From contig JAPLKG010000017.1 of NCBI GenBank assembly GCA_026388185.1, forward strand, positions 124,001 through 188,000: a stretch of DNA of 64,000 nt, in the 5' to 3' direction. A program made the position numbers and the translations under genes. How positions within the stretch are numbered: position 1 is the first letter of the stretch; every line of letters begins with the position of its first letter. Below the pieces are notes generated by a model. That model had not been told where the DNA came from and searched no databases. It saw nothing but the letters and a program-made list of their open reading frames with translations. The stretch is from Candidatus Eisenbacteria bacterium (GTDB lineage Bacteria > Eisenbacteria > RBG-16-71-46 > JAFGJU01). Positions 13,203 to 25,632 of this stretch are shown here, piece after piece.

Positions 13203-15611
13203 TTATCCGCACCGCGAGAATCCGCAGAAATGGCAGACCAGGCAACCGCCTTCAGGTTCTACTTTGCCACCGCAGTCCGGACACGTGAGCTGCTGAATCT
13301 GCGTGTCCCGCGCCCCTTCTGACACGCCGCTGGAAGCGACCGTCGCGCCCGTGGAGCCGACCGCCCCGCCGCTACCGGGCTCACCCGAAGAGGGCCCAAA
13401 GCCCGAGCCGGAGGCAGAAGAGCGTTCGAGGAATCTCTCTATGGCCTTTCCTATGGCGTCGGGGCAGGAAAGGACTTGGCTGCCGTTGTCCCACAGGGGT
13501 TGAGGGCACCTTATTCCCTTCAATTGCGTGAGCGTAGAGCGGATGTCTATGCCCGACCTCAGAGCGAGAGAGACGAGCCGGCTTATGGCTTCCGTCTGGG
13601 AGGCGGCGCAACCGCCCGTCTTTCCGAGTCTGGCAAAGACCTCGAAGGGACCCTGCTCGTCTTCGTTCACCGTTACGTAGAGACTTCCGCAGCCCGTCCC
13701 GATCTTTTCCGTGGAACCTCTCGTGACGAGAGGTCGCGAACGTGGCGTCAGTCTTCCCCTGAGCCTTCCCCCGAGTTTCTTGTCCTCCCTGCCTATCGTG
13801 AGGACCTGCCGTTCCCGGCTCCCGTCTCGATAGATGGTCACGCCCTTACACTGAAGTCTGTAGGCAAGCATGTACGCGTTCTCTACGTCCGCGACGGTGG
13901 CGTTGCGACCGAAGTTTATGGTCTTTGAGACCGCGTTGTCTGTGTGCTTCTGGAATGCCGCCTGCATCCGAACGTGCCACTCGGGAGTGATGTCGTGCGC
14001 CGTGACGAAGACTCTTTTCACGTCCTCCGGAATCCCCTCGATGTCTTTGAGACTCCCTTTGGCCGCTACTGCCCTGGCAAGCTCTTCCGTGTAGAAGCCT
14101 CTGTCCTCCGCAGTTTTCCTGAACGCCTTGTTGACTTCGGGAAGTTCCGTGTTGTCCATCACATTTTTGATGTATGAAATTGCAAACAACGGCTCGATGC
14201 CACTCGAGCAATCCGCCAATATGCTGAGCGTACCGGTCGGCGCGATGGTCGTGGTGGTGGCGTTGCGCACCCTGGGAGCGCCTGGAGAGTCACTGGCGCT
14301 GCCCTTGAAGACGGGAAAGACACCCTTCTTCCTGGCAAGCTCGACGGAAGCCTTCTTGGATTCGGCTTGTATGAGGCTCATCACCTTCTCGGCAAGCTCA
14401 ATGGCGTCCTGGGAGTCATACGGAATTCCCAACTTCAGGAGCATGTCCGCAAAACCCATGACTCCGAGGCCTATCTTCCGCGTGCCTCTGGACATCTTCT
14501 CAATGTCGGGGATGGGATACTTGTTCACGTCTATCACGTTGTCCAAGAATCTCACCGCAATCGGTATGACTTCTTGGAGTCTCTCAAAATCCACTTCTGT
14601 GCGGCCGTTGACGGTCCTCACCATTTTAGACAGATTGATCGAACCGAGGTTGCACGACTCGTAGGGCAGGAGAGGTTGTTCGCCGCAAGGGTTGGTGCTC
14701 TCTATCCTGCCGAGATGAGGCGTGGGGTTGTCGCGGTTGAGTCTGTCGAGAAAGACGACGCCCGGCTCGCCGTTTTTCCAGGCCATGAGGACAATCAACC
14801 TGAATACTTTCCTCGCCTTGAGTTTGCCGATCGCGTCGTTTGTTCGTGGGTTTATCAGGTCGTACTCTTCGTCCTTCTCGACCGCCTCCATGAACCTCTC
14901 GGTCACGCCGACGGAGAGATTGAAGTTGTTGAGACAGTTTTCCTTGTTCTTTGCTGTAATGAAATCGAGGACGTCGGGATGATCGACGCGAAGAAGCCCC
15001 ATGTTGGCGCCCCTTCGCGTTCCGCCTTGCTTGATGGCATCCGTGGCAGAGTCAAACACTGTCATGAATGAGACCGGCCCGCTGGAGATACCCCGCGTGG
15101 AAAGCACGACGTCGTTTCTGGGTCTGAGTTTTGAGAAAGAGAAGCCCGTCCCGCCACCGCTTTTGTGAATCAGAGCGGTGTTCTTGACGGCTTCAAAAAT
15201 GCTCTCCATTGAATCCTCGACGGGAAGAACAAAACAGGCAGAAAGTTGCTGCAGGTCGGCGCCCGCGTTCATCAGAGTCGGTGAATTCGGAAGGAACTCG
15301 AGCGAGGCCATGATCTCAAAGAAGTCCTTTTCTATCCTCGCTACTTCTTCTTGGTTCTCGTATCTCGCGTCCGACGAAGCTATGTTCTTCGCAACCCGCC
15401 GGAGCATCTCCTCGGGCGTCTCGATGAGTTTTCCGGCTTCGTCTTTCCTCAGGTATCTTCGTTCAAGGACTTTCGCTGCGTTTTCCGAGAAGCGGACTTC
15501 GGCTTCGCAGCTTCCGTGGCTGCACCTGGGGGGTTCAGTTCGGCGAGCAGATCTTCTAGCGACTCTAGATCTCATAGGAGCGCCCGGCGCATCCTGAATT
15601 GCCTTTGCCAT
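13203..15611 (-). CDS. nrdJ: Class II (adenosylcobalamin-dependent) ribonucleoside-diphosphate reductase
   Basis: This 802-residue enzyme makes deoxyribonucleotides with a cobalamin-derived radical, independently of oxygen. The 10-stranded barrel holds SACFVLPVEDSME near 124 (redox Cys), the active-site NPCGEQPLLPYESCNLGSIN near 310, and a C-terminal-half PTGT loop near 464. A TSCPD-like domain (TGCGSLYVTVNEDEQGPF) near 645 and a final zinc ribbon (CPDCGG... CHFCGFSRCG) complete the usual class II architecture. I prefer ATG 15611, with GGGAG 8 nt upstream, over the GTG three codons earlier. A strong promoter with two NrdR-box-like sites lies about 120-160 nt upstream. No other RNR is in the window. 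Confidence 0.95.
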   Translation of the reverse strand: MAKAIQDAPGAPMRSRVARRSARRTEPPRCSHGSCEAEVRFSENAAKVLERRYLRKDEAGKLIETPEEMLRRVAKNIASSDARYENQEEVARIEKDFFEIMASLEFLPNSPTLMNAGADLQQLSACFVLPVEDSMESIFEAVKNTALIHKSGGGTGFSFSKLRPRNDVVLSTRGISSGPVSFMTVFDSATDAIKQGGTRRGANMGLLRVDHPDVLDFITAKNKENCLNNFNLSVGVTERFMEAVEKDEEYDLINPRTNDAIGKLKARKVFRLIVLMAWKNGEPGVVFLDRLNRDNPTPHLGRIESTNPCGEQPLLPYESCNLGSINLSKMVRTVNGRTEVDFERLQEVIPIAVRFLDNVIDVNKYPIPDIEKMSRGTRKIGLGVMGFADMLLKLGIPYDSQDAIELAEKVMSLIQAESKKASVELARKKGVFPVFKGSASDSPGAPRVRNATTTTIAPTGTLSILADCSSGIEPLFAISYIKNVMDNTELPEVNKAFRKTAEDRGFYTEELARAVAAKGSLKDIEGIPEDVKRVFVTAHDITPEWHVRMQAAFQKHTDNAVSKTINFGRNATVADVENAYMLAYRLQCKGVTIYRDGSRERQVLTIGREDKKLGGRLRGRLTPRSRPLVTRGSTEKIGTGCGSLYVTVNEDEQGPFEVFARLGKTGGCAASQTEAISRLVSLALRSGIDIRSTLTQLKGIRCPQPLWDNGSQVLSCPDAIGKAIERFLERSSASGSGFGPSSGEPGSGGAVGSTGATVASSGVSEGARDTQIQQLTCPDCGGKVEPEGGCLVCHFCGFSRCG

Positions 15612-15731
15612 CACTGCCACTCCCGAGCTCTATTGTAAAGAGAGATTGCTGGTCTAGAAGGTCCACGAAACGGAACCGGAATTTCCCCCGTGGAGAAACT
15701 CCGGCCCGAAACACTGCAGAACAAATCGACT

Positions 15732-16059: not shown

Positions 16060-16254
16060 TTAGTTACCTCCCGAAGTGGTCGTCGTAGTAGTGGTCGTCG
16101 TGGAGGTATCAACCGGAGCTGTCTCCGGAACTGGAGTGGTCTCCGTCGTCGTCGTCGTCGTCCCCTCCGGCGGCGCCTTCTTTGCGCAGCCCAGACCGGC
16201 GCAAAGGGTCACGACAAACAGGGCTATCAAAAGGATAGCTAGTGCCTTCTTCAT
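16060..16254 (-). CDS. Small Thr-rich secreted or lipoprotein-like peptide
   Basis: A 64-residue protein begins MKKALAILLIALFVVTLCAG, a textbook signal sequence, then GCAKK and a tail of Thr runs with Pro, Glu and Val. The Cys in GLGC could be lipidated, but the -3 residue is Gly instead of Leu/Val, so the lipobox is weak. The start is ATG 16254: the mRNA just before it carries AAGGAGGTGAT, an 11-nt complement to the 16S rRNA 3' end, which implies heavy translation. Strong terminators flank it (15961-16006 and 16345-16367), so it is a one-gene unit. It resembles no family I know; small abundant envelope lipoproteins are the nearest comparison. Confidence 0.75.
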   Translation of the reverse strand: MKKALAILLIALFVVTLCAGLGCAKKAPPEGTTTTTTETTPVPETAPVDTSTTTTTTTTTSGGN

Positions 16255-16344
16255 TTCACGTATCACCTCCTTAAGCTCGCAACACCACGCAAAAGCGTCG
16301 TATTGTTGTGCTGTGAATCTTGATCTGAATTCCAGATGCTTCCG

Positions 16345-16367
16345 AAAAAAGGCATCTTGATGATGCC
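16345..16367 (-). terminator. Intrinsic terminator after the cytochrome/metallophosphatase gene
   Basis: GGCATC (16367-16362 on the minus strand), loop ATCAA, GATGCC, then six T residues (16350-16345). It stands about 190 nt after the stop at 16553 and upstream of the small lipoprotein gene, separating the two units. Confidence 0.85.
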
Positions 16368-16368
16368 T

Positions 16369-16396
16369 ACTACAACAAAGCAATAGAAGTTGTCAA
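16369..16396 (-). promoter_or_regulatory. Possible promoter of the small lipoprotein gene
   Basis: A consensus TTGACA (16396-16391), 16 nt, then TGTAGT (16374-16369; 4 of 6) on the minus strand. Its start would fall inside the terminator hairpin at 16345-16367, so new transcripts would lack the complete stem and escape termination. Compact but plausible. Confidence 0.42.
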
Positions 16397-16552: not shown

Positions 16553-17884
16553 TCAGTGCGAAATCTTCTTCACGTACGTCTTGTAGTTGAAATCGGGGCT
16601 TCTATCCTTCGTGTGGCACACAAGACACTTCTGTTCGCTCACCTGCTTGTAGCTTCCGTCCCTCTTGTGAGCGCTACCCATGCCGTGACAAGCCTCACAT
16701 TGCACATTCTCCAACTCGACAGAAGAAGCCTTGCCAAATCCGGTGGGCTCTCCGTAGCCGGTCGTATGACAGGCCAGACACTCCGTCAAACCCTCACTGT
16801 TCGTCTTCGTGAGAGTCTCGTATGCGCGAGCGTGCCCCATCTTTGACACCTTCTGGTCTACACCTTCGTGGCATCGTCTACACGTCCCCTCACCGAGGTA
16901 GCGATCTTCGCCCGCTCTGGACAGAGACGCTTCCTGCTCCTGTCGCATTCTTTCGTCCGTCAGTTTTTTTTCCTGCTTGTTGTACTCTTGGATGACTGCC
17001 AGTACGAGTTTACCCTCACGTATTCTGCCGTCGAGCGGCACTTGTGTTCCTTCGTGAGATATTATGCCCTTCTTGCCCTCCAGTTTCAGGATCAGACGGC
17101 CCACGTACTGCGCCTTCGCCCCACCCGCCATGACCAGGGCATTACCTTCCTTGCGCGGCTCGATGAGAACGCTCGTGTTGTGACCGATCACAAGGACGTC
17201 GATCTGGGGGACTTCGTTGACCAGCTTCGTGCTCTTGGCGATGCCCATGTGGGCAAGCACCACCACTACGTCCACTTTCTTCTTCAGAGAAGGTATCAGC
17301 TTCTTTGCGGTCTCTACGGGATCAAGTATTACCAGACTGTCGGGCCTGCTTGCCGCTGGGGGCACGGAGAGCACGTTGTCGATGAGACCGACTATGCCCA
17401 CCTTAACGTTGCCACGCTTGGTTATCAAGTAGGGCTGAACGACTGTCTTGCCGTTCCTGCGGTAAACGAGATTGGCGTTCACCAGGGGGACCTTTGTCTC
17501 ACGCGCAGCATCAAGCAAGAATTCTGTCCCGAGCTCCAGTTCAAGCTCGCCGACGCACAGAGCATCGTATCCCATGAGACCCATGCAGCGGAGAACAACC
17601 TCGGCCTTCCTTTTCTCCAACTCGGAGTTGCCGCCGAAAGCGTCACCCGCATCCACAGAGACTACGTTATTGAAAGACGCGCGCATAGAGTCAATCAAGC
17701 CGGCCCGCCGGGCCAGACCACCCTTCTGGGACGAGTGTCAGCCACAGGGGGCAAGTTCTGAACGGGTGTCGTTAGTCGAGAGGATAACCAGAGTCTCTTC
17801 CTTGGCTTGCAGGACTGGCGGCATAAGTGCGAGCACCAGTGTGGCCGAGAGAAGAATGATGGGTGCAAGTCTCAGATGTTTCAA
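16553..17884 (-). CDS. UshA-like metallophosphatase fused to tetraheme cytochrome c, with in-frame TGA (probable selenocysteine)
   Basis: Read through one TGA at 17740-17738, this is a 443-residue exported protein. A signal peptide (MKHLRLAPIILLSATLVLAL, about 1-27) precedes a 5'-nucleotidase/calcineurin-like domain with STNDTRSELAPCG, then the TGA as residue 49, then HSSQKGGLARRAG and VVSVDAGDAFGG. Four CxxCH heme sites follow at about 335-339, 369-373, 396-400 and 420-424. From memory, relatives commonly have CGC before the GGLARR motif, so the TGA would replace that second Cys. Two hairpins suited to a bacterial SECIS lie just after it. Start is TTG 17884 with AGGAGGT 10 nt upstream. Without recoding, only a 48-residue stub or an unexported fragment from TTG 17698 would form. 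A nonsense mutation or sequence error is the alternative. Confidence 0.75.
17700..17729 (-). promoter_or_regulatory. SECIS-like hairpins just after the in-frame TGA
   Basis: Counting from the nucleotide after the TGA, positions 9-13 (CCAGA) pair with 21-25 (TCTGG) around loop AGGGTGG. Alternatively positions 22-28 (CTGGCCC) pair with 32-38 (GGGCCGG) around loop GGC. Both have a G within the first two loop bases, as bacterial SECIS elements do. The first puts the loop G at +15, about where the E. coli fdhF loop lies; the second, more stable, at +29. GC-rich DNA forms such hairpins readily, so this is supporting evidence only. Confidence 0.4.
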
Positions 17885-17928
17885 CGTAAGCGTCACCTCC
17901 TGCATACTCAAGCGCATTACAGCATATA

Positions 17929-18014: not shown

Positions 18015-18308
18015 TCAGGCTCGGACTCTCTCTTTGAGTGCTTTCCCAGCCTGAAACGCAGGGAATCTCGCCGCGGGTATCTTGATCCTCTCTCCAGTCT
18101 GGGGGTTTCGTCCCTCCCTGGCCTTTCGCTTCCTCGTCTTAAAGGTACCGAAACCCGTTATCTGGACTTTTCTCCGGCTCACGAGCTCACCAACTATGAT
18201 CCCGCGCTTGGGAAGAGTGCTGAAAAGAGCGTCTATGGCCGCCTTTGCATCCTTGAGGGAGAGCCCGGTTCTTCTGGCAAGCTCCGCCGCAAGCTTCGTC
18301 TTGCTCAT
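18015..18308 (-). CDS. HU/IHF-family DNA-binding protein
   Basis: This 97-residue histone-like protein bends and compacts DNA as a dimer. The N-terminal helices (MSKTKLAAELARRTGLSLKD) are followed by the GFGTF turn (about 44-48) and the DNA-wrapping arm with GRNPQTGERIKIPA at about 58-71. The start is ATG 18308 with GGAGG 8 nt upstream; the GTG three codons earlier overlaps that site. It has its own promoter downstream of lptD. Whether it acts as HU or IHF cannot be told. Confidence 0.94.
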   Translation of the reverse strand: MSKTKLAAELARRTGLSLKDAKAAIDALFSTLPKRGIIVGELVSRRKVQITGFGTFKTRKRKAREGRNPQTGERIKIPAARFPAFQAGKALKERVRA

Positions 18309-18382
18309 ACGATTCACCTCCAGAAAACGTGAGAGAGGATGGTGCTTACGAAATGGCTTACTCGCAAGGTAGACGGAATCAC

Positions 18383-18409
18383 ACTATAACACCATGGCGT
18401 CGTTGTCAA
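18383..18409 (-). promoter_or_regulatory. Probable promoter of the HU gene
   Basis: A consensus TTGACA (18409-18404) and TATAGT (18388-18383; 5 of 6) on the minus strand, with a short 15-nt spacer. It lies just past the lptD stop and gives a leader of about 68 nt to ATG 18308. Confidence 0.55.
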
Positions 18410-18423
18410 CACGTTCTCCAATA

Positions 18424-21400
18424 CTACTGGGCCGTCCCACGCTCTACGTAGATTTCTTTGTGTGCCTTGATGTTGATCTTGAAGTAATACTCCCACTTTT
18501 GCCCCGAGAACACTCTCGTGAAATACGCTTCCCAACAATGGAGGTCCCTGTAGAGCGAGAATCTCTGGCTGATGATCTCCTTATCTTTCAAGTCATAGTG
18601 TGCGGAATACTGGACCCGCCAGTTGGGAGAAAGATCGAAGCCTGCATTGCCGTCGACCCAATAGCTGGCGCTCGCCCTGTCCTCGCCGCGGTTATAGCTG
18701 AAGGTGAAGGCGCCCTGCAGCGGAGGCAGGGAAATACCCTTTTCCTCAGTGTCCCCAGTGTCCTCATCAACTCCCTGCGCTGCGCTCTCCCCTTCCAGAA
18801 CACGCTCTCCAGGGGCCGCCTCCTCCGGTTCTTCCCCACCACCCGCTTTTCCTCCGGTCTGGAAGGAAACGTTAGAAACAAGACTCATACTGGTCATGTG
18901 GAACTTCACGGGATCGTGGGTCAGAAATAGTTCCGAGGACAGGTTGTTTGTGGGTTTCAATCTCACAGAAGTGTTTATGTTCGAAAAGGCCTGTGAATTG
19001 TTCTTTTCTTTGTACAGAAAATCGTAGGAAGTGGAGACATTAAGATCCAGAAGGTCGTCCAGCTTTATCACCCTGTCCTTCCATTTCAATTTTGCCTGGA
19101 AGCGGTTGCTCAACGCCATTGAGAGAAGCTGGCTCTTACTCCACGAAGTCGAGATCGAGCTGAAACTGGGAAAACGGCTTCGTCTGGTGCCGTACTCGTC
19201 GACATAACTGTACTCCGGAAAATCGGGCTGGTAGGAAAACTGGAGGCTGGGCGAGAGAGAGTGCCTGATTCCGTCGAGTGGGCCAAGCCTCGGCATGAAG
19301 ACACGATAGAGCGTGGCACTTCCTGTCATTGAAGCGCTCCAGACGCCCGAACGCTCATACTTGTTTCCAAGGAGATCCTTATCATACCAATTCTCGGTGT
19401 ACGACAACCCTGGGGAAACGTTGAGAATCCCGAACAGCTTTCTCGCGTCCCTCAAGCTCAGACGCGTACTCATCCCGGAATGAGTGTCCTCACTCAATTC
19501 ATATTTCTTGGATTCCGAAACGAGCACTGAAGACGCGCTGAGATACATGCTACTCAGCCAGGGAAGCCACCCCTTGTCCTTCCCGCCCTTGGAGGCCCTG
19601 CCAATCGCCTTGCTCTGTAACGACAGACTCACCTTGGGTCTCAACTCCGACCTCGTCAGCTCGTTCACGCCGTCGGTCGGGTCAGTGTTCATGTAGTCTG
19701 TTCTATCGTAGGCGCCGGTGAGCTGCGCTGAGGCCCAGCGCTTCGTTAGAGACATTTTCGAGCGCAATATTTGGTTCATGCGCTGCACGAAGTCCCTTCC
19801 TAATCCCCTATCCAGTCTGTAGGTCTTGTCGCTGACGAAATCCCCTTCCATGGAAAGATCGAGTCCTTCCCCCAACTTCTGGAGGTGACTGCCCCTGAGG
19901 TCCCACTGGGAGGTGCCGAGACCCTCATTCCGTGAGTATGAGGTGTTGAGGTAGCCCGACAGTTTGTAGCGAACCTCGTAGCGCCCCTCGAGATATCCAA
20001 TCCAGCGAGGTGAGCTCTCGTAGTAGTCAATCCAGGCCGTGGCATCGGCGTACTCATTGACGGCCCAGTAGTAGCCGGCATTTCTGATAAACCTACCCTT
20101 GTTCGAGCTCAAGCCGAACTCCACCTGGGGAATCAAAAAACCTGAATGCCTTCCCGGTTTTATGGGAAATACATAGAACGGCAGAGCCAAGACGGGAATC
20201 TTCCTTACGTAGAGAATGAGCGGCTTCACGATCACCTTGTCGTTTGCGTAGACCTTCATTCGAGTGCCTGTGAAATGATAGTGCGGCTCCTTGAGCTCGC
20301 AGGTTGTGTAGTCACCCACCCTGACGTCGAGGATCTTGTCCCCCACCTTCCGAATCTGATCACCCGTGTAGAATCCCTTCTGAAATCTCGTGTTTCCGTG
20401 GAATATGGTGCCCCTTGCGCTCTCCAGGGAATACGTCATTCTGTCGCCCGTAACCTTCTGCTCGCCTTCCCAGAGGATGGGCTCTCCCGTGGCCTCGAGG
20501 CTCTGCTTGTCGGAATCAAACGCCACCTGCTCGGCTATCAGCCTGAGATTCTTGTACTTGAGTTCTGCCTGACCCGTGAGGTTTATGAGGTGTTCGCCCA
20601 CGAAGAACTCTATTTTCTTCTTACTTGAATACTCGACCTCTTCTTGTTTCATGCTGTCGCCCGAGGCAGTGGAGAAATGGTACTTTCCTGAAGTCACTCC
20701 ATCAAACGTCGCCTTGTAGGGCTTTCGGTCACGGACCTCCAGGTGCAGCGTCTCGCCGTCTGCGGTGTTCGAGGTGGGCTTGCGCCCTGCGGCGGAGAAG
20801 TATTCGCTGTGCGCGTGTCCGTAAACAAAAACCTCTTTGACTTCCTCGTTGTCCATCAGGATGCGTATGGAGTCTCCGCGCACAAGACTCGTCTCGGCCT
20901 CTTGGCCGGCGGGCGCTCTGTAGAAAACCTGCGCATTTTCAAAGACCTTGACGGTGCGGATCTGATCTCCGTCCGTGAGAAGTTCGAGCGAATCCCCCAG
21001 AATTTCTCCATCTTTGTCCCACGCACGCGGCTGTCCGGACAGCGCTGCTCTGTTCTCGTTCCTGAAGAACTCCGCCAGTTGGCAGGTGGCTTCCATGTCC
21101 TCACGATTTATGTGAACGCTGCCTCTGGCCTTGAAGATATCCTTGTCCATCAGGAATTCCATTTCCTCTCCAACGACGACCGTTTGCTTTCCCTTCTTGT
21201 CGGTGGAGACCAGCTTCGGGCTTGAGGTAACCAGTGCAACCTTCGTGTTTCTGTTGTACAGCGCCTGGCCGCCTGTGACGGTGGCGTCGTTCGGCCTGTC
21301 AAAGGCCGTGACGTTGCCCGTTGCCTCGACCAGCTCGGTGTCCCTGTGGTAGACGATCCTGTCCGCGTCAATCTTCCTCGTGCTGTCCACCATGGTGACA

Positions 21401-22023
21401 TTTCCCGAGACCACAGCCACGTTTTCTCTCCTGCGAAACTCGGCCACCGCACCGGTCAGGGTGACGTCGGCGTTCTTGATGTGAACGTTCTCCTGAAGCG
21501 TGGCCACCTGAGTCTCGAGAGAATATGTGGCTCTCCTAGAATTCATTATGGTCTCTCCGTCAACGATCCTCACGCCGCCGCCGAGCGTGGCTATCCGTGA
21601 ATTGCGGAAGTATATCCCCGTCGCGCCGGTTGCCGCCGTGGTGCCATGCACGATGCGAACATTACCTTCAAGAAGAAGAAAGTCCTCCCCGGTCTCTCCT
21701 TGCCCCTTCAGGTTGTCGGCGGAGATCTGGAAGGGTATCTCTTCCTCTGCTTGAGCCGAATCCTGTGCAGATTCGGTCGTGGCAGGTTTCTGGAGAGGCG
21801 CTGTGACGGTCGTCTGAGCAGAATCCTGGGACGTCTTTGGGTCGGCTCCCTGAGCCGTGGCGACACCGGGAGAGAGCGGCATGAGCAAACTCAAGGACAG
21901 GAAGAGAAACAGACAGAGGAAGGCGCAGGAAGACCGGCAATAAAACGGGCGGACGGACGGGCAGATCGACCGGAGAAATCGTGATCTGCGGGAGGCCGTG
22001 ACGGGGCGAAGCCGCTTGTGCAT
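18424..22023 (-). CDS. lptD: LPS-assembly outer-membrane protein LptD (OstA), enlarged
   Basis: LptD inserts lipopolysaccharide into the outer leaflet of the outer membrane. After a basic N-terminus, a hydrophobic signal (LCLFLFLSLSLLM, about 36-48) leads to cleavage near 58. Residues 90 to about 550 carry repeated OstA/LptA-type strands (for example GNVRIVHGTTAATG, GNVTMVDSTRKIDADRIVYH), and the C-terminal half is a beta-barrel rich in alternating aromatic strands ending in KINIKAHKEIYVERGTAQ. At 1199 residues it is longer than proteobacterial LptD (about 780), mainly through extra OstA repeats. It begins 3 nt after the ROK kinase stop, so it is co-transcribed with the genes upstream. Confidence 0.9.
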   Translation of the reverse strand: MHKRLRPVTASRRSRFLRSICPSVRPFYCRSSCAFLCLFLFLSLSLLMPLSPGVATAQGADPKTSQDSAQTTVTAPLQKPATTESAQDSAQAEEEIPFQISADNLKGQGETGEDFLLLEGNVRIVHGTTAATGATGIYFRNSRIATLGGGVRIVDGETIMNSRRATYSLETQVATLQENVHIKNADVTLTGAVAEFRRRENVAVVSGNVTMVDSTRKIDADRIVYHRDTELVEATGNVTAFDRPNDATVTGGQALYNRNTKVALVTSSPKLVSTDKKGKQTVVVGEEMEFLMDKDIFKARGSVHINREDMEATCQLAEFFRNENRAALSGQPRAWDKDGEILGDSLELLTDGDQIRTVKVFENAQVFYRAPAGQEAETSLVRGDSIRILMDNEEVKEVFVYGHAHSEYFSAAGRKPTSNTADGETLHLEVRDRKPYKATFDGVTSGKYHFSTASGDSMKQEEVEYSSKKKIEFFVGEHLINLTGQAELKYKNLRLIAEQVAFDSDKQSLEATGEPILWEGEQKVTGDRMTYSLESARGTIFHGNTRFQKGFYTGDQIRKVGDKILDVRVGDYTTCELKEPHYHFTGTRMKVYANDKVIVKPLILYVRKIPVLALPFYVFPIKPGRHSGFLIPQVEFGLSSNKGRFIRNAGYYWAVNEYADATAWIDYYESSPRWIGYLEGRYEVRYKLSGYLNTSYSRNEGLGTSQWDLRGSHLQKLGEGLDLSMEGDFVSDKTYRLDRGLGRDFVQRMNQILRSKMSLTKRWASAQLTGAYDRTDYMNTDPTDGVNELTRSELRPKVSLSLQSKAIGRASKGGKDKGWLPWLSSMYLSASSVLVSESKKYELSEDTHSGMSTRLSLRDARKLFGILNVSPGLSYTENWYDKDLLGNKYERSGVWSASMTGSATLYRVFMPRLGPLDGIRHSLSPSLQFSYQPDFPEYSYVDEYGTRRSRFPSFSSISTSWSKSQLLSMALSNRFQAKLKWKDRVIKLDDLLDLNVSTSYDFLYKEKNNSQAFSNINTSVRLKPTNNLSSELFLTHDPVKFHMTSMSLVSNVSFQTGGKAGGGEEPEEAAPGERVLEGESAAQGVDEDTGDTEEKGISLPPLQGAFTFSYNRGEDRASASYWVDGNAGFDLSPNWRVQYSAHYDLKDKEIISQRFSLYRDLHCWEAYFTRVFSGQKWEYYFKINIKAHKEIYVERGTAQ

Positions 22024-22026
22024 GAC

Positions 22027-23004
22027 TCAGTCTTCCTCGCTCGTCAACACCATCATGGCTGCGCCAATGACTCCCGCGTCATTACCAAACCGCGCAGGTA
22101 CTATCTCGACGCACTTGCTGGAGGGCGCAATCGCTCTCCTGGTCACGGTGGCCTTCACCGCCCGGAACAGTGGCTCGCCGGCGTTCGACACCCCGCCGCC
22201 TATTACTACGATCTCGGGATTGAGGAGGTTTATTGCGCCCGCAAGCGCTATGCCAATGTACTCGCCGGCTTCTGCGAACACTCTTTCCGCGATCTCGTTA
22301 CCTTCCTTCGCCGCCTCGCCAAGGTCTCTTGCAGTCAGATCGTCCAGAGACCCGAGACCCATAACCTCCCACTCCTTCTGTTTACCCTCCTCCTGTATCA
22401 AAGTTCTCGCTCTGCGTACGATTTGCCCGCTTCCGGCAAAACTCTCAAGACAACCTCTGTTGCCACACGAACAGATCGGCCCGTCCGGATCAATTGTGAC
22501 GTGGCCGATCTCCCCGGCAAAACCGCAACTGCCGGTGTACATTTCACCGTTGAGCTTGAGTCCTCCCCCGACTCCGGTTCCCAGTGTCACGAACACGGCG
22601 TTAGTTGCGTCCTTCGCGGCCCCATAGAAACCTTCGGCGACACTGAAGACATTGGCGTCGTTGTCCAGCGTGACCTTGACGCGAAGCTCTTGAGAAAGCA
22701 GGCCCGCGAGCGGTGTGTCTCGCCAACCCGGGAGGTTAGGTGAGATCTTGACTATTCCAAGGCGTGTATCGATTAGACCCGCGCACCCGATGCCTATTGA
22801 CGGCAGCTCTATTTGCGCTTCACGTCCAAGTTCTCTCACTGCACCAGAGAGTCTTGCTACGACTGCTTCGGGTGCTTCTTTGGGACTCATGGGGAGAAGG
22901 CGCCGGCCGAGGACTCTGGGACCCTCGGCAACCAGAGCAACCTTGATGTACGTGCCACCGACATCCACACCGATTGCAATGGGGTTCTCGCGTGAAGATG
23001 ACAT
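22027..23004 (-). CDS. ROK-family sugar kinase (glucokinase-like)
   Basis: A 325-residue kinase that probably phosphorylates glucose or a related hexose with ATP. It shows the ATP loop GVDVGGTYIKVAL (about 12-24), catalytic Asp in DNDANVFSVAEG (about 114-125), LGTGVGGGLKLNG (about 141-153), EIGHVTIDPDG (about 165-175) and the zinc motif CSCGNRGCLE (about 178-187). No helix-turn-helix precedes the kinase, so it is an enzyme rather than a ROK repressor. GGGAG lies 8 nt before ATG 23004. A sugar ABC transporter ATPase is the next gene upstream, which suggests uptake and phosphorylation of a sugar. Confidence 0.93.
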   Translation of the reverse strand: MSSSRENPIAIGVDVGGTYIKVALVAEGPRVLGRRLLPMSPKEAPEAVVARLSGAVRELGREAQIELPSIGIGCAGLIDTRLGIVKISPNLPGWRDTPLAGLLSQELRVKVTLDNDANVFSVAEGFYGAAKDATNAVFVTLGTGVGGGLKLNGEMYTGSCGFAGEIGHVTIDPDGPICSCGNRGCLESFAGSGQIVRRARTLIQEEGKQKEWEVMGLGSLDDLTARDLGEAAKEGNEIAERVFAEAGEYIGIALAGAINLLNPEIVVIGGGVSNAGEPLFRAVKATVTRRAIAPSSKCVEIVPARFGNDAGVIGAAMMVLTSEED

Positions 23005-23121
23005 AGCGAAATCTCCCGAGGCGTGGCCTACTGGCCTGACTCGTCAGTTTAGTTCTTCACGACAGAGCATCTCCGGCGCAGGCAGAGATCACCTTCCTGG
23101 CGACACGCTCTCACAAACGGT

Positions 23122-24234
23122 TCATCCTCGAGGAAGTGCGATTTTTGCTTCGCTTCTAGAATCAAAGACGTGTGCCCTCGAAGCCGGCACAAAAAGCCTC
23201 ACGGATGCAAGTCGCACCGGAATCTCTCTGCCCGTTGCTTTATAAACGATGGGGGTTTTGCCCACGCCAACATGCACCACCGCCTCATTTCCGAGAACCT
23301 CAACAAGATCCACGGTCCCCTGAGCCAACTCCAGAAACTTCGTGTCTGTGGGCCGCTCCGTGACGATGTCTTCGGGCCTCGCGCCGAGGCTTATCTCGCA
23401 ATGTGGACACGCCTGCATGATGGAGCCGAACTCGGGAGGAAGCCCGACAGACATGTAGGGAGACCTGAAGAACAGCTTACCGTCGACCTCTTCAATCGTT
23501 CCCTCTACGATGTTCATCGAGGGAGTGCCGATGAAACCTGCCACAAACCTGTCCGCCGGATTGCGGTAGACCTCGAGGGGTTCGTCAATCTGCCTCACGA
23601 CTCCCTTGTTCATCACGGCTATCCTTTGCCCCATGGTCATGGCCTCTGTCTGGTCGTGCGTGACGTAGATCATCGTGACGCCCAGCTTGGCATGGAGTTT
23701 CACGATTTCCGCGCGCATCTGGACTCTAAGTCTTGCGTCGAGGTTGGAGAGAGGCTCGTCAAAAAGGAATACCTTGGGATGCCTCACTATGGCTCTGCCG
23801 ACGGCGACTCTTTGCCTCTGTCCGCCGGAAAGCTCTTTCGGCTTTCTCGAGAGCAGGGAGGCGATTTCGAGAATCTCTGCGGCCTCCTGGACTCTTCGGT
23901 CTATCTCTGCCTTTGCGAACTTCCTGAGTCTCAGGCCGAAAGACATGTTGTCATACACGGTCATGTGAGGATAGAGAGCGTAGTTCTGAAAAACCATGGC
24001 GATGTCGCGGTCCTTGGGGGCCACGTCGTTGACCAACGTGTCGCCGACGTAGACCTCTCCCTGGCTGGGCTGCTCCAACCCCGCCACAATTCGCAGGACG
24101 GTCGTCTTTCCGCAACCGGAGGGACCGACCAGGACCAAGAGCTCCTTGTCCCTCACGTTGAGACTCACGTCGTCAACGGCCACGACTCCACCTGCAAATG
24201 ATTTCGTCACACCTTTGAGGACTACTTCTGCCAT
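23122..24234 (-). CDS. Sugar ABC transporter ATP-binding protein (MalK/UgpC/MsmK type)
   Basis: This 370-residue protein powers import of sugars or glycerol phosphate. Walker A GPSGCGKTT is at 37-45, the Q-loop in VFQNYALYPH (81-90), signature LSGGQRQR at 135-142, and Walker B VFLFDEP at 155-161. The C-terminal 130 residues are the regulatory TOBE/OB region of the CUT1 subfamily. No permease or binding-protein gene is adjacent, so it is probably a shared ATPase serving transporters encoded elsewhere. It lies 30 nt downstream of folC and 117 nt upstream of the ROK kinase. Substrate is not resolvable. Confidence 0.92.
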   Translation of the reverse strand: MAEVVLKGVTKSFAGGVVAVDDVSLNVRDKELLVLVGPSGCGKTTVLRIVAGLEQPSQGEVYVGDTLVNDVAPKDRDIAMVFQNYALYPHMTVYDNMSFGLRLRKFAKAEIDRRVQEAAEILEIASLLSRKPKELSGGQRQRVAVGRAIVRHPKVFLFDEPLSNLDARLRVQMRAEIVKLHAKLGVTMIYVTHDQTEAMTMGQRIAVMNKGVVRQIDEPLEVYRNPADRFVAGFIGTPSMNIVEGTIEEVDGKLFFRSPYMSVGLPPEFGSIMQACPHCEISLGARPEDIVTERPTDTKFLELAQGTVDLVEVLGNEAVVHVGVGKTPIVYKATGREIPVRLASVRLFVPASRAHVFDSRSEAKIALPRG

Positions 24235-24264
24235 CTCACGTTCTCCCTTGAGTACGCGTGCTCC

Positions 24265-25632
24265 CTAAATGCACTCCCTGACGCCAATTCCCAGACAATC
24301 CATCGCTTCGCCAACAGTATAGAAGGAGCCCGTCACACATACAAGCTCATCGTCGCCGGCAAGAGAGAAGGCCTCATCGAGGGCCCGGGGCACGCTGTCC
24401 TTCACGCTCCATTTGGAGAATGTGGACGGCCCCTTGCTCTTGAGTTCGCACGCAGGAAGCGCCCGGGGAGTGGAGGCTTGCGTGAACACTACGTGCCTGA
24501 CGCGGGGCAAGAGGCGTTTCAGAAATGTCTTGTGGTCCTTGTCCTGAACCATACCCACTACCGCCACCACGTTCTTACCCCGGTAGATTGTGGCCAGGGC
24601 TTCACTCAGCGCATTCCCGGCATCGGGATTGTGGGCGACGTCAAGAAGAACAAGCGGCTTCCATCCCCGTTCTTCGAGCCTTCCTGGCCACTCGGCGTCT
24701 CTCAAGCCTGCCTCGATGGCCTCTTTGCCTATTGTGATCCCGCGGTTTTCCAGATGCGAGCAAGCGAGAAGCGCGCAGCCCGCGTTCCTGATCTGGCGCT
24801 TACCTCTCAGACGTAAGTAAAGGTCGGTCCAGCGGGTTTTGTACTCGCAACCATCGGCGGCGTGAACATTACCCGGTTGTGGGCCGCGACGTGTCGGGCT
24901 GCGACGCGCCGATGAGGCGGTGGCGGAAAAGACCGTGCCCGCTCGCGACACAAAACGCGACCTGAGCCTTATGTCCCTGCCCACTACAGAAAGTGGTGAG
25001 GCGAGAGAAGTAGATATTTCGGCGAGCGCCTCAAGCGCCTCACCTCGGGCACCGGTGACGACCGGGCGCCCTTTCCGCATTATCCCCGCCTTTTCAGCGG
25101 CGATCGCGCGCAACGTGGTGCCCAGGATACTACTGTGCTCTACGGCAATCCCGGTAATGATCGAAACCAGCGGGCTCAGGACGTTCGTGGAGTCCAGTCT
25201 CCCTCCGAGTCCCACTTCTGCAACAACAAGCTCCACCTTTGTGTCCTTGAAATGTTTGAAGGCAAGTGCGGTGATCGTCTCGAAGAAGGAATGCCCGCCC
25301 TTTTCGGCGATGGGAACAAGAAATCTCAGCAACTCTCCGGCTTCATTCCTGGCAATGCACTCGCCTGAGATTCTTATCCTCTCTCTGAAGTCGATGAGGT
25401 GGGGAGACGTGTAGAGGCCGACGTTGTAACCGGCGGCTTTGAGTATCGAGGCGATGAGAGAGCACGTTGAACCCTTGCCGTTTGTGCCAGCCACGAGAAC
25501 AGAGGGAAAGTGTCGTTCCGGCCTGCCGACTGTCTTGAGTAACGTCCTTGTGCCGTCCAGGCTAAACTTCATTCCTCTCTTTTGGAGAGAGTAAAAGCGC
25601 CCGACCAGCCTGTCATACTCCGTTCCCCTCAT
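24265..25632 (-). CDS. folC: Folylpolyglutamate synthase / dihydrofolate synthase
   Basis: This 455-residue Mur-ligase-family enzyme adds glutamate to folates with ATP. The P-loop GTNGKGST is at 49-56, then SPHLIDFRERIRI (about 76-88), HSSILGTTLRAIAAEKAGI around 166-184 and the C-terminal LLDVAHNPDAGNA near 338. An Arg/Pro/Gly-rich stretch of about 25 residues near 240-265 interrupts the usual substrate-loop region and looks like a flexible insert. ATG 25632 lies inside the end of accD (20-nt overlap), so the two are coupled, a common accD-folC order. Confidence 0.92.
   Translation of the reverse strand: MRGTEYDRLVGRFYSLQKRGMKFSLDGTRTLLKTVGRPERHFPSVLVAGTNGKGSTCSLIASILKAAGYNVGLYTSPHLIDFRERIRISGECIARNEAGELLRFLVPIAEKGGHSFFETITALAFKHFKDTKVELVVAEVGLGGRLDSTNVLSPLVSIITGIAVEHSSILGTTLRAIAAEKAGIMRKGRPVVTGARGEALEALAEISTSLASPLSVVGRDIRLRSRFVSRAGTVFSATASSARRSPTRRGPQPGNVHAADGCEYKTRWTDLYLRLRGKRQIRNAGCALLACSHLENRGITIGKEAIEAGLRDAEWPGRLEERGWKPLVLLDVAHNPDAGNALSEALATIYRGKNVVAVVGMVQDKDHKTFLKRLLPRVRHVVFTQASTPRALPACELKSKGPSTFSKWSVKDSVPRALDEAFSLAGDDELVCVTGSFYTVGEAMDCLGIGVRECI

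Follow-up and report, generated by a model that had tools for sequence, protein, structure and literature searches.

A well-supported further member of the UshA-like selenoprotein family, with a tetraheme cytochrome tail, in Candidatus Eisenbacteria

A gene on the reverse strand of the window (the whole 64,000-nucleotide stretch of Candidatus Eisenbacteria DNA analysed here) is a well-supported further member of a selenoprotein family that has been listed since 2008, and not a discovery. Its internal TGA is very probably decoded as selenocysteine (Sec), and the selenoprotein identity of the gene, taken jointly with its assignment to family NF041198, is close to certain. The full explanation, to which we assign a probability of about 0.9, is an exported NF041198 selenoprotein in which Sec49 would be inserted by the cell's own Sel system with the help of a downstream hairpin, and in which a degenerate nucleotidase domain carries a tetraheme tail. 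The features concerned are as follows.

16553..17884, reverse strand: UshA-like tetraheme selenoprotein gene; TTG start, 443 codons and a TGA stop (translation, NF041198 match, GGAGGT)
17885..17901, reverse strand: Shine-Dalgarno sequence AGGAGGT and spacer ahead of the TTG (sequence)
17738..17740, reverse strand: in-frame TGA, predicted selenocysteine 49 in PCGU (same codon TGA in 32 and TGC in 9 homologues)
17700..17716, reverse strand: candidate SECIS hairpin CUGGCCC-GGC-GGGCCGG, +22 to +38 after the TGA (conserved pairing, compensatory changes)
16868..16882, reverse strand: heme site 1, CRRCH, residues 335-339 (translation; conserved in 39/41)
16766..16780, reverse strand: heme site 2, CLACH, residues 369-373 (translation, 41-member alignment)
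16685..16699, reverse strand: heme site 3, CEACH, residues 396-400 (translation, 41-member alignment)
16613..16627, reverse strand: heme site 4, CLVCH, residues 420-424 (translation, 41-member alignment)

When TGA is translated as U, positions 17884 to 16553 form a single open frame of 443 residues that closes with a second TGA, used as a stop, and a GGAGGT Shine-Dalgarno sequence lies 10 nt upstream of the TTG at 17884. The product contains, in order, a signal peptide, TND, PCGU (residues 46-49), the nucleotidase-like domain and four CxxCH sites. Translation thus bears out what the sequence-only reading had described, namely one continuous frame through the TGA, a signal peptide with four CxxCH motifs, and a TGA at 17740-17738 corresponding to residue 49. 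The gene is also an annotation trap, as standard gene calling yields a 381-residue fragment with neither signal peptide nor Sec residue.

Codon 49 was compared across 41 homologous genes, including the window gene, drawn from the phylum or its near relatives. The codon is TGA in 32 and TGC in 9 of them, always within CG[U/C] and followed by GG[L/V/I][A/S]RR. C47, G48 and U/C49 are invariant (41/41); since the search pattern itself demanded all three, it is the division between TGA and TGC, together with the whole-protein alignment, that is informative. Because homologues elsewhere have TGA or TGC at exactly this codon, its presence in the window gene is not due to chance. Relatives had been expected to carry CGC at this place, and it had been proposed that the read-through protein be aligned with them and the codon sought in related genomes; the nine TGC genes, the Cys or Sec at residue 49 of every member and the 32 TGA genes agree with that expectation. 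Many further genomes of the phylum have a gene of the UshA-like family with one in-frame TGA. At least about 37 of 47 phylum genomes list a match with an internal TGA, the position of the TGA having been verified for the loci that were fetched.

On comparative grounds, the hairpin at +22 to +38 makes a good candidate for the SECIS element. All seven pairs and a GG[C/A] loop are present in 32/32 Sec genes, whereas the full element (seven pairs and GG loop) is kept by none of the nine Cys genes, and the encoded peptide is nearly identical. Within it, the Ala58 codon is GCC in 32/32 Sec genes vs. 0/9 Cys genes, and the Arg59 codon is CGG in 32/32 vs. 1/9. Two Cys genes come near to being exceptions: L089 has seven pairs but a GCC loop, and the Cys paralogue of L083 has a GGC loop but has lost the outermost pair. 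In the pairing comparison, 100% of cells were paired among Sec genes and 16 were altered on both sides, a typical compensation being synonymous on both (CUG..GCC to CUC..GCG); among Cys genes 79% were paired and nothing stood clearly above shuffles. The covariation score for Sec genes was 0.303, whereas shuffles averaged 0.131 and none of 500 scored as high; it fell to at most 0.026 when the hairpin was slid along the alignment. These shuffles ignore the relatedness of the genes, and pairs based on a tree were used in addition. The tree requires at least six Sec/Cys changes, and the hairpin changes along with residue 49 in 6/6 phylogenetically independent Sec/Cys pairs (sign test p = 0.031).

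Support for this element is comparative because in the window sequence alone the hairpin folds no more stably than shuffles do (z = 0.12). Randomisation of synonymous codons gave mostly weak folding-energy z-scores; the random pool, drawn from the same family, already contained the hairpin codons, and the comparison of pairing in Sec and Cys genes was therefore used instead. A search of Rfam returned no match within the window. The sequence-only reading had proposed two SECIS-like hairpins. The one at +22 to +38 stands, but the other, at +9 to +25, does not coincide with any conserved element across the Sec genes.

The machinery for selenocysteine insertion had been named as something to look for in the same genome, and all four components are present in the source assembly (2.6 Mb, 97.9% complete): SelA (474 bits), SelB (365 bits), SelD (344 bits) and a tRNA-Sec with anticodon tca (69.5 bits). 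SelD has an in-frame TGA of its own, at CSGU, and at L093 (G000:C11:334947-335876) selD, itself a selenoprotein gene, lies immediately upstream of the gene for tRNA-Sec. Sec at residue 49 is strongly supported, since Cys homologues, a recurrent TGA, a complete Sec machinery and a Sec-tied SECIS hairpin all point to it. In the mechanism we propose, the UGA at 17740-17738 would be read as selenocysteine by SelA, SelB, SelC and SelD of the cell, and the hairpin at +22 to +38 would direct the insertion.

Two other explanations of the TGA were weighed. If it were a real stop, in a pseudogene or through a sequencing error, a shorter protein might start at TTG 17698, and a 381-residue frame does begin there. 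Such a protein would lack a signal peptide and yet carry CxxCH heme sites, the conserved hairpin is complete only in TGA genes, and 32 distinct homologues, spread over many genomes that were assembled independently, have TGA at this very codon, so that we consider this very improbable. Alternatively, TGA could encode another amino acid in this genome, such as Trp (as in code 4) or Gly (as in code 25), and the frame is indeed open once TGA is counted as sense. A reassigned code is hardly credible, however, because TGA also terminates the window gene and several of its relatives; the homologues show Cys at the site, neither Trp nor Gly, and none of the four sel genes is missing from the genome. 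Decoding as selenocysteine is accordingly the reading adopted here.

The gene had been put forward as a candidate new selenoprotein, of a family in which no selenoprotein was known to be described, and this proved wrong. With 290.5 bits, the window protein exceeds the cut-off (275) of NCBIfam NF041198, "UshA-like (seleno)protein" (UshA_like_PCGU), a model that all 11 aligned members match; its own matches span model positions 8-272 and 349-519, the latter being the cytochrome tail. A COG0737 UshA-like protein with motif CxU stands in the table of detected selenoprotein families of a 2008 GOS study, where the entry belongs to the section on families described earlier (PMC2398784). The same protein and motif are tabulated again in a 2022 review (PMC9312934) and in a 2026 review that also gives NF041198 (PMC13188914). 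This match and the listings since 2008 refute the proposal that the family is new among selenoproteins. The window protein has the PCGU motif and the two-part layout in common with NF041198, as well as the occurrence of Sec and Cys forms, and differs in being shorter (443 residues vs. a 519-position model). A second related family, NF049981 (UshA-like (seleno)protein family 2), is likewise a nucleotidase-fold selenoprotein; its model has 262 positions, the window protein reaches only 44 bits against its cut-off of 140, and its motif is given as CxxU (PMC13188914). Candidatus Eisenbacteria is not named for the UshA-like family in the passages used here from PMC2398784, PMC9312934 and PMC13188914, and a literature search that combined Eisenbacteria and selenocysteine gave no result.

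The N-terminal domain has the 5'-nucleotidase fold, with matches to 3ivd, UshA and CD73 at E values of 1e-18 to 1e-22 (3ivd, E 2.0e-22, probability 1.00), and nucleotidases and SoxB are its distant relatives by sequence. The tail aligns with cytochrome c554 (PF13435, 46.1 bits; PDB 1bvb, E 1.1e-15) through its four CxxCH motifs but is fused to a nucleotidase-fold selenoprotein domain. The fold is thus shared with UshA and other 5'-nucleotidases (PDB 3ivd, 1ush, 2z1a), from which the window protein differs in lacking the catalytic His and several metal ligands; the tetraheme tail stands where UshA has its nucleotide-binding C-terminal domain. SoxB thiosulfohydrolase (TIGR04486, PDB 2wdc) is exported, as is the window protein, but has no tetraheme tail, and the score against its model is 85 bits (cut-off 550). 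The mature protein would accordingly consist of two parts, a degenerate 5'-nucleotidase-fold domain, whose first strand is followed by a loop bearing the Cys-Gly-Sec site, and a cytochrome c554-like tetraheme tail.

Of the UshA-type residue set (DxH, GD, GNH(E), H, GHxH), the window protein retains D39, D81, H212 and H235 at ligand positions. In an alignment to the Thermus nucleotidase 2z1a, however, the His of D-x-H is Arg41, GNH is GEL, with Glu113-Leu114 in place of Asn-His, and the last His is Thr237, so that ligands and the catalytic His are replaced. The "conserved first phosphatase motif" of the sequence-only reading therefore keeps its Asp and has lost its His. Its "metallophosphatase" similarly describes fold and ancestry correctly but probably not activity, as most metal ligands are unconserved.

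These substitutions bear on whether the protein could be a Sec-containing but conventional metallophosphoesterase, a nucleotidase/UshA-like or SoxB-like hydrolase in which CGU merely tunes or binds the metal. Kinship with nucleotidases and SoxB by fold and sequence, and the four ligands still in place, would fit such an enzyme. Across the 41 members, however, D81 is retained in 19, H212 in 18 and H235 in 22; CG[U/C], by contrast, is invariant and the heme sites are kept in 38-39, and we consider a conventional hydrolase unlikely. Because the metal ligands are poorly kept while CG[U/C] and the hemes are (nearly) invariant, we infer that hydrolysis has probably been lost and that selection maintains the CGU centre with the hemes. 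That most of the di-metal phosphatase ligands are gone points to a redox protein linked to heme, and away from a phosphatase. A tentative proposal, to which we give slightly less than even odds, is that the CGU site beside the former metal-phosphatase cleft would serve in electron exchange with the hemes, as a thiol/selenol redox or metal-binding centre, instead of hydrolysing phosphoesters. It is possible, and rather more doubtful, that the cleft of a defunct metallophosphatase has become, by way of PCGU, a selenol redox or metal centre connected to the four hemes, an enzyme chemistry that to our knowledge is not described for the nucleotidase fold. In the structural model, pLDDT falls below 50 at residues 45-52 and over part of the heme domain, which is too low for the distance from Sec to heme to be read.

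In the window, the selenoprotein gene is preceded on the same strand by genes for folC-like (24265-25632; named from sequence, not from a family search), LptD/OstA-like (18424-22023) and HU-like (18015-18317) proteins, with other genes between the first two. ORFs similar to these genes lie beside the homologue at some of the other 27 loci examined (LptD-like at 12/27, folC-like at 8/27 and HU-like at 6/27), and the order folC-like, LptD/OstA-like, HU-like, UshA-like selenoprotein (18015-25632, reverse strand) is partly conserved across the phylum. This partial conservation suggests vertical inheritance of the UshA-like gene rather than recent transfer. A conserved operon or enzymatic partner was not found at the loci examined. 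In one genome, UshA-like paralogues flank CcdA and a TlpA-type thioredoxin (L031:4397-5685, identical to L114:9192-10477), an arrangement suggestive of thiol redox; they were dropped as functional partners, as they occur in that genome and at none of the other loci searched. At 16060-16383 (reverse strand), shortly after the selenoprotein gene, the window encodes a putative small lipoprotein that has a lipobox-like LCAGLGC and ends in poly-Thr, and at 13203-15620 on the same strand a ribonucleotide reductase, probably of the B12-dependent type, which contains a TSCPD domain and whose C-terminus is Cys-rich. Some genomes have adjacent Sec and Cys paralogues (L109, 6640-9505; L110, 6666-9621; L113, 6787-9601), and there the SECIS hairpin is found in the Sec copies, while the Cys copies are without the full element.

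What is added here is the presence of the family in most of the phylum genomes examined, a gene order conserved in part, some six Sec/Cys exchanges accompanied by loss of the SECIS element, and the loss of most di-metal phosphatase ligands in the UshA-like family. A Sec family whose function is unstated in the passages used here from the reviews (PMC9312934, PMC13188914) is thereby documented across much of a candidate phylum. With its tandem Sec/Cys paralogues and several independent exchanges, it therefore offers a good natural series for testing the role of Sec.
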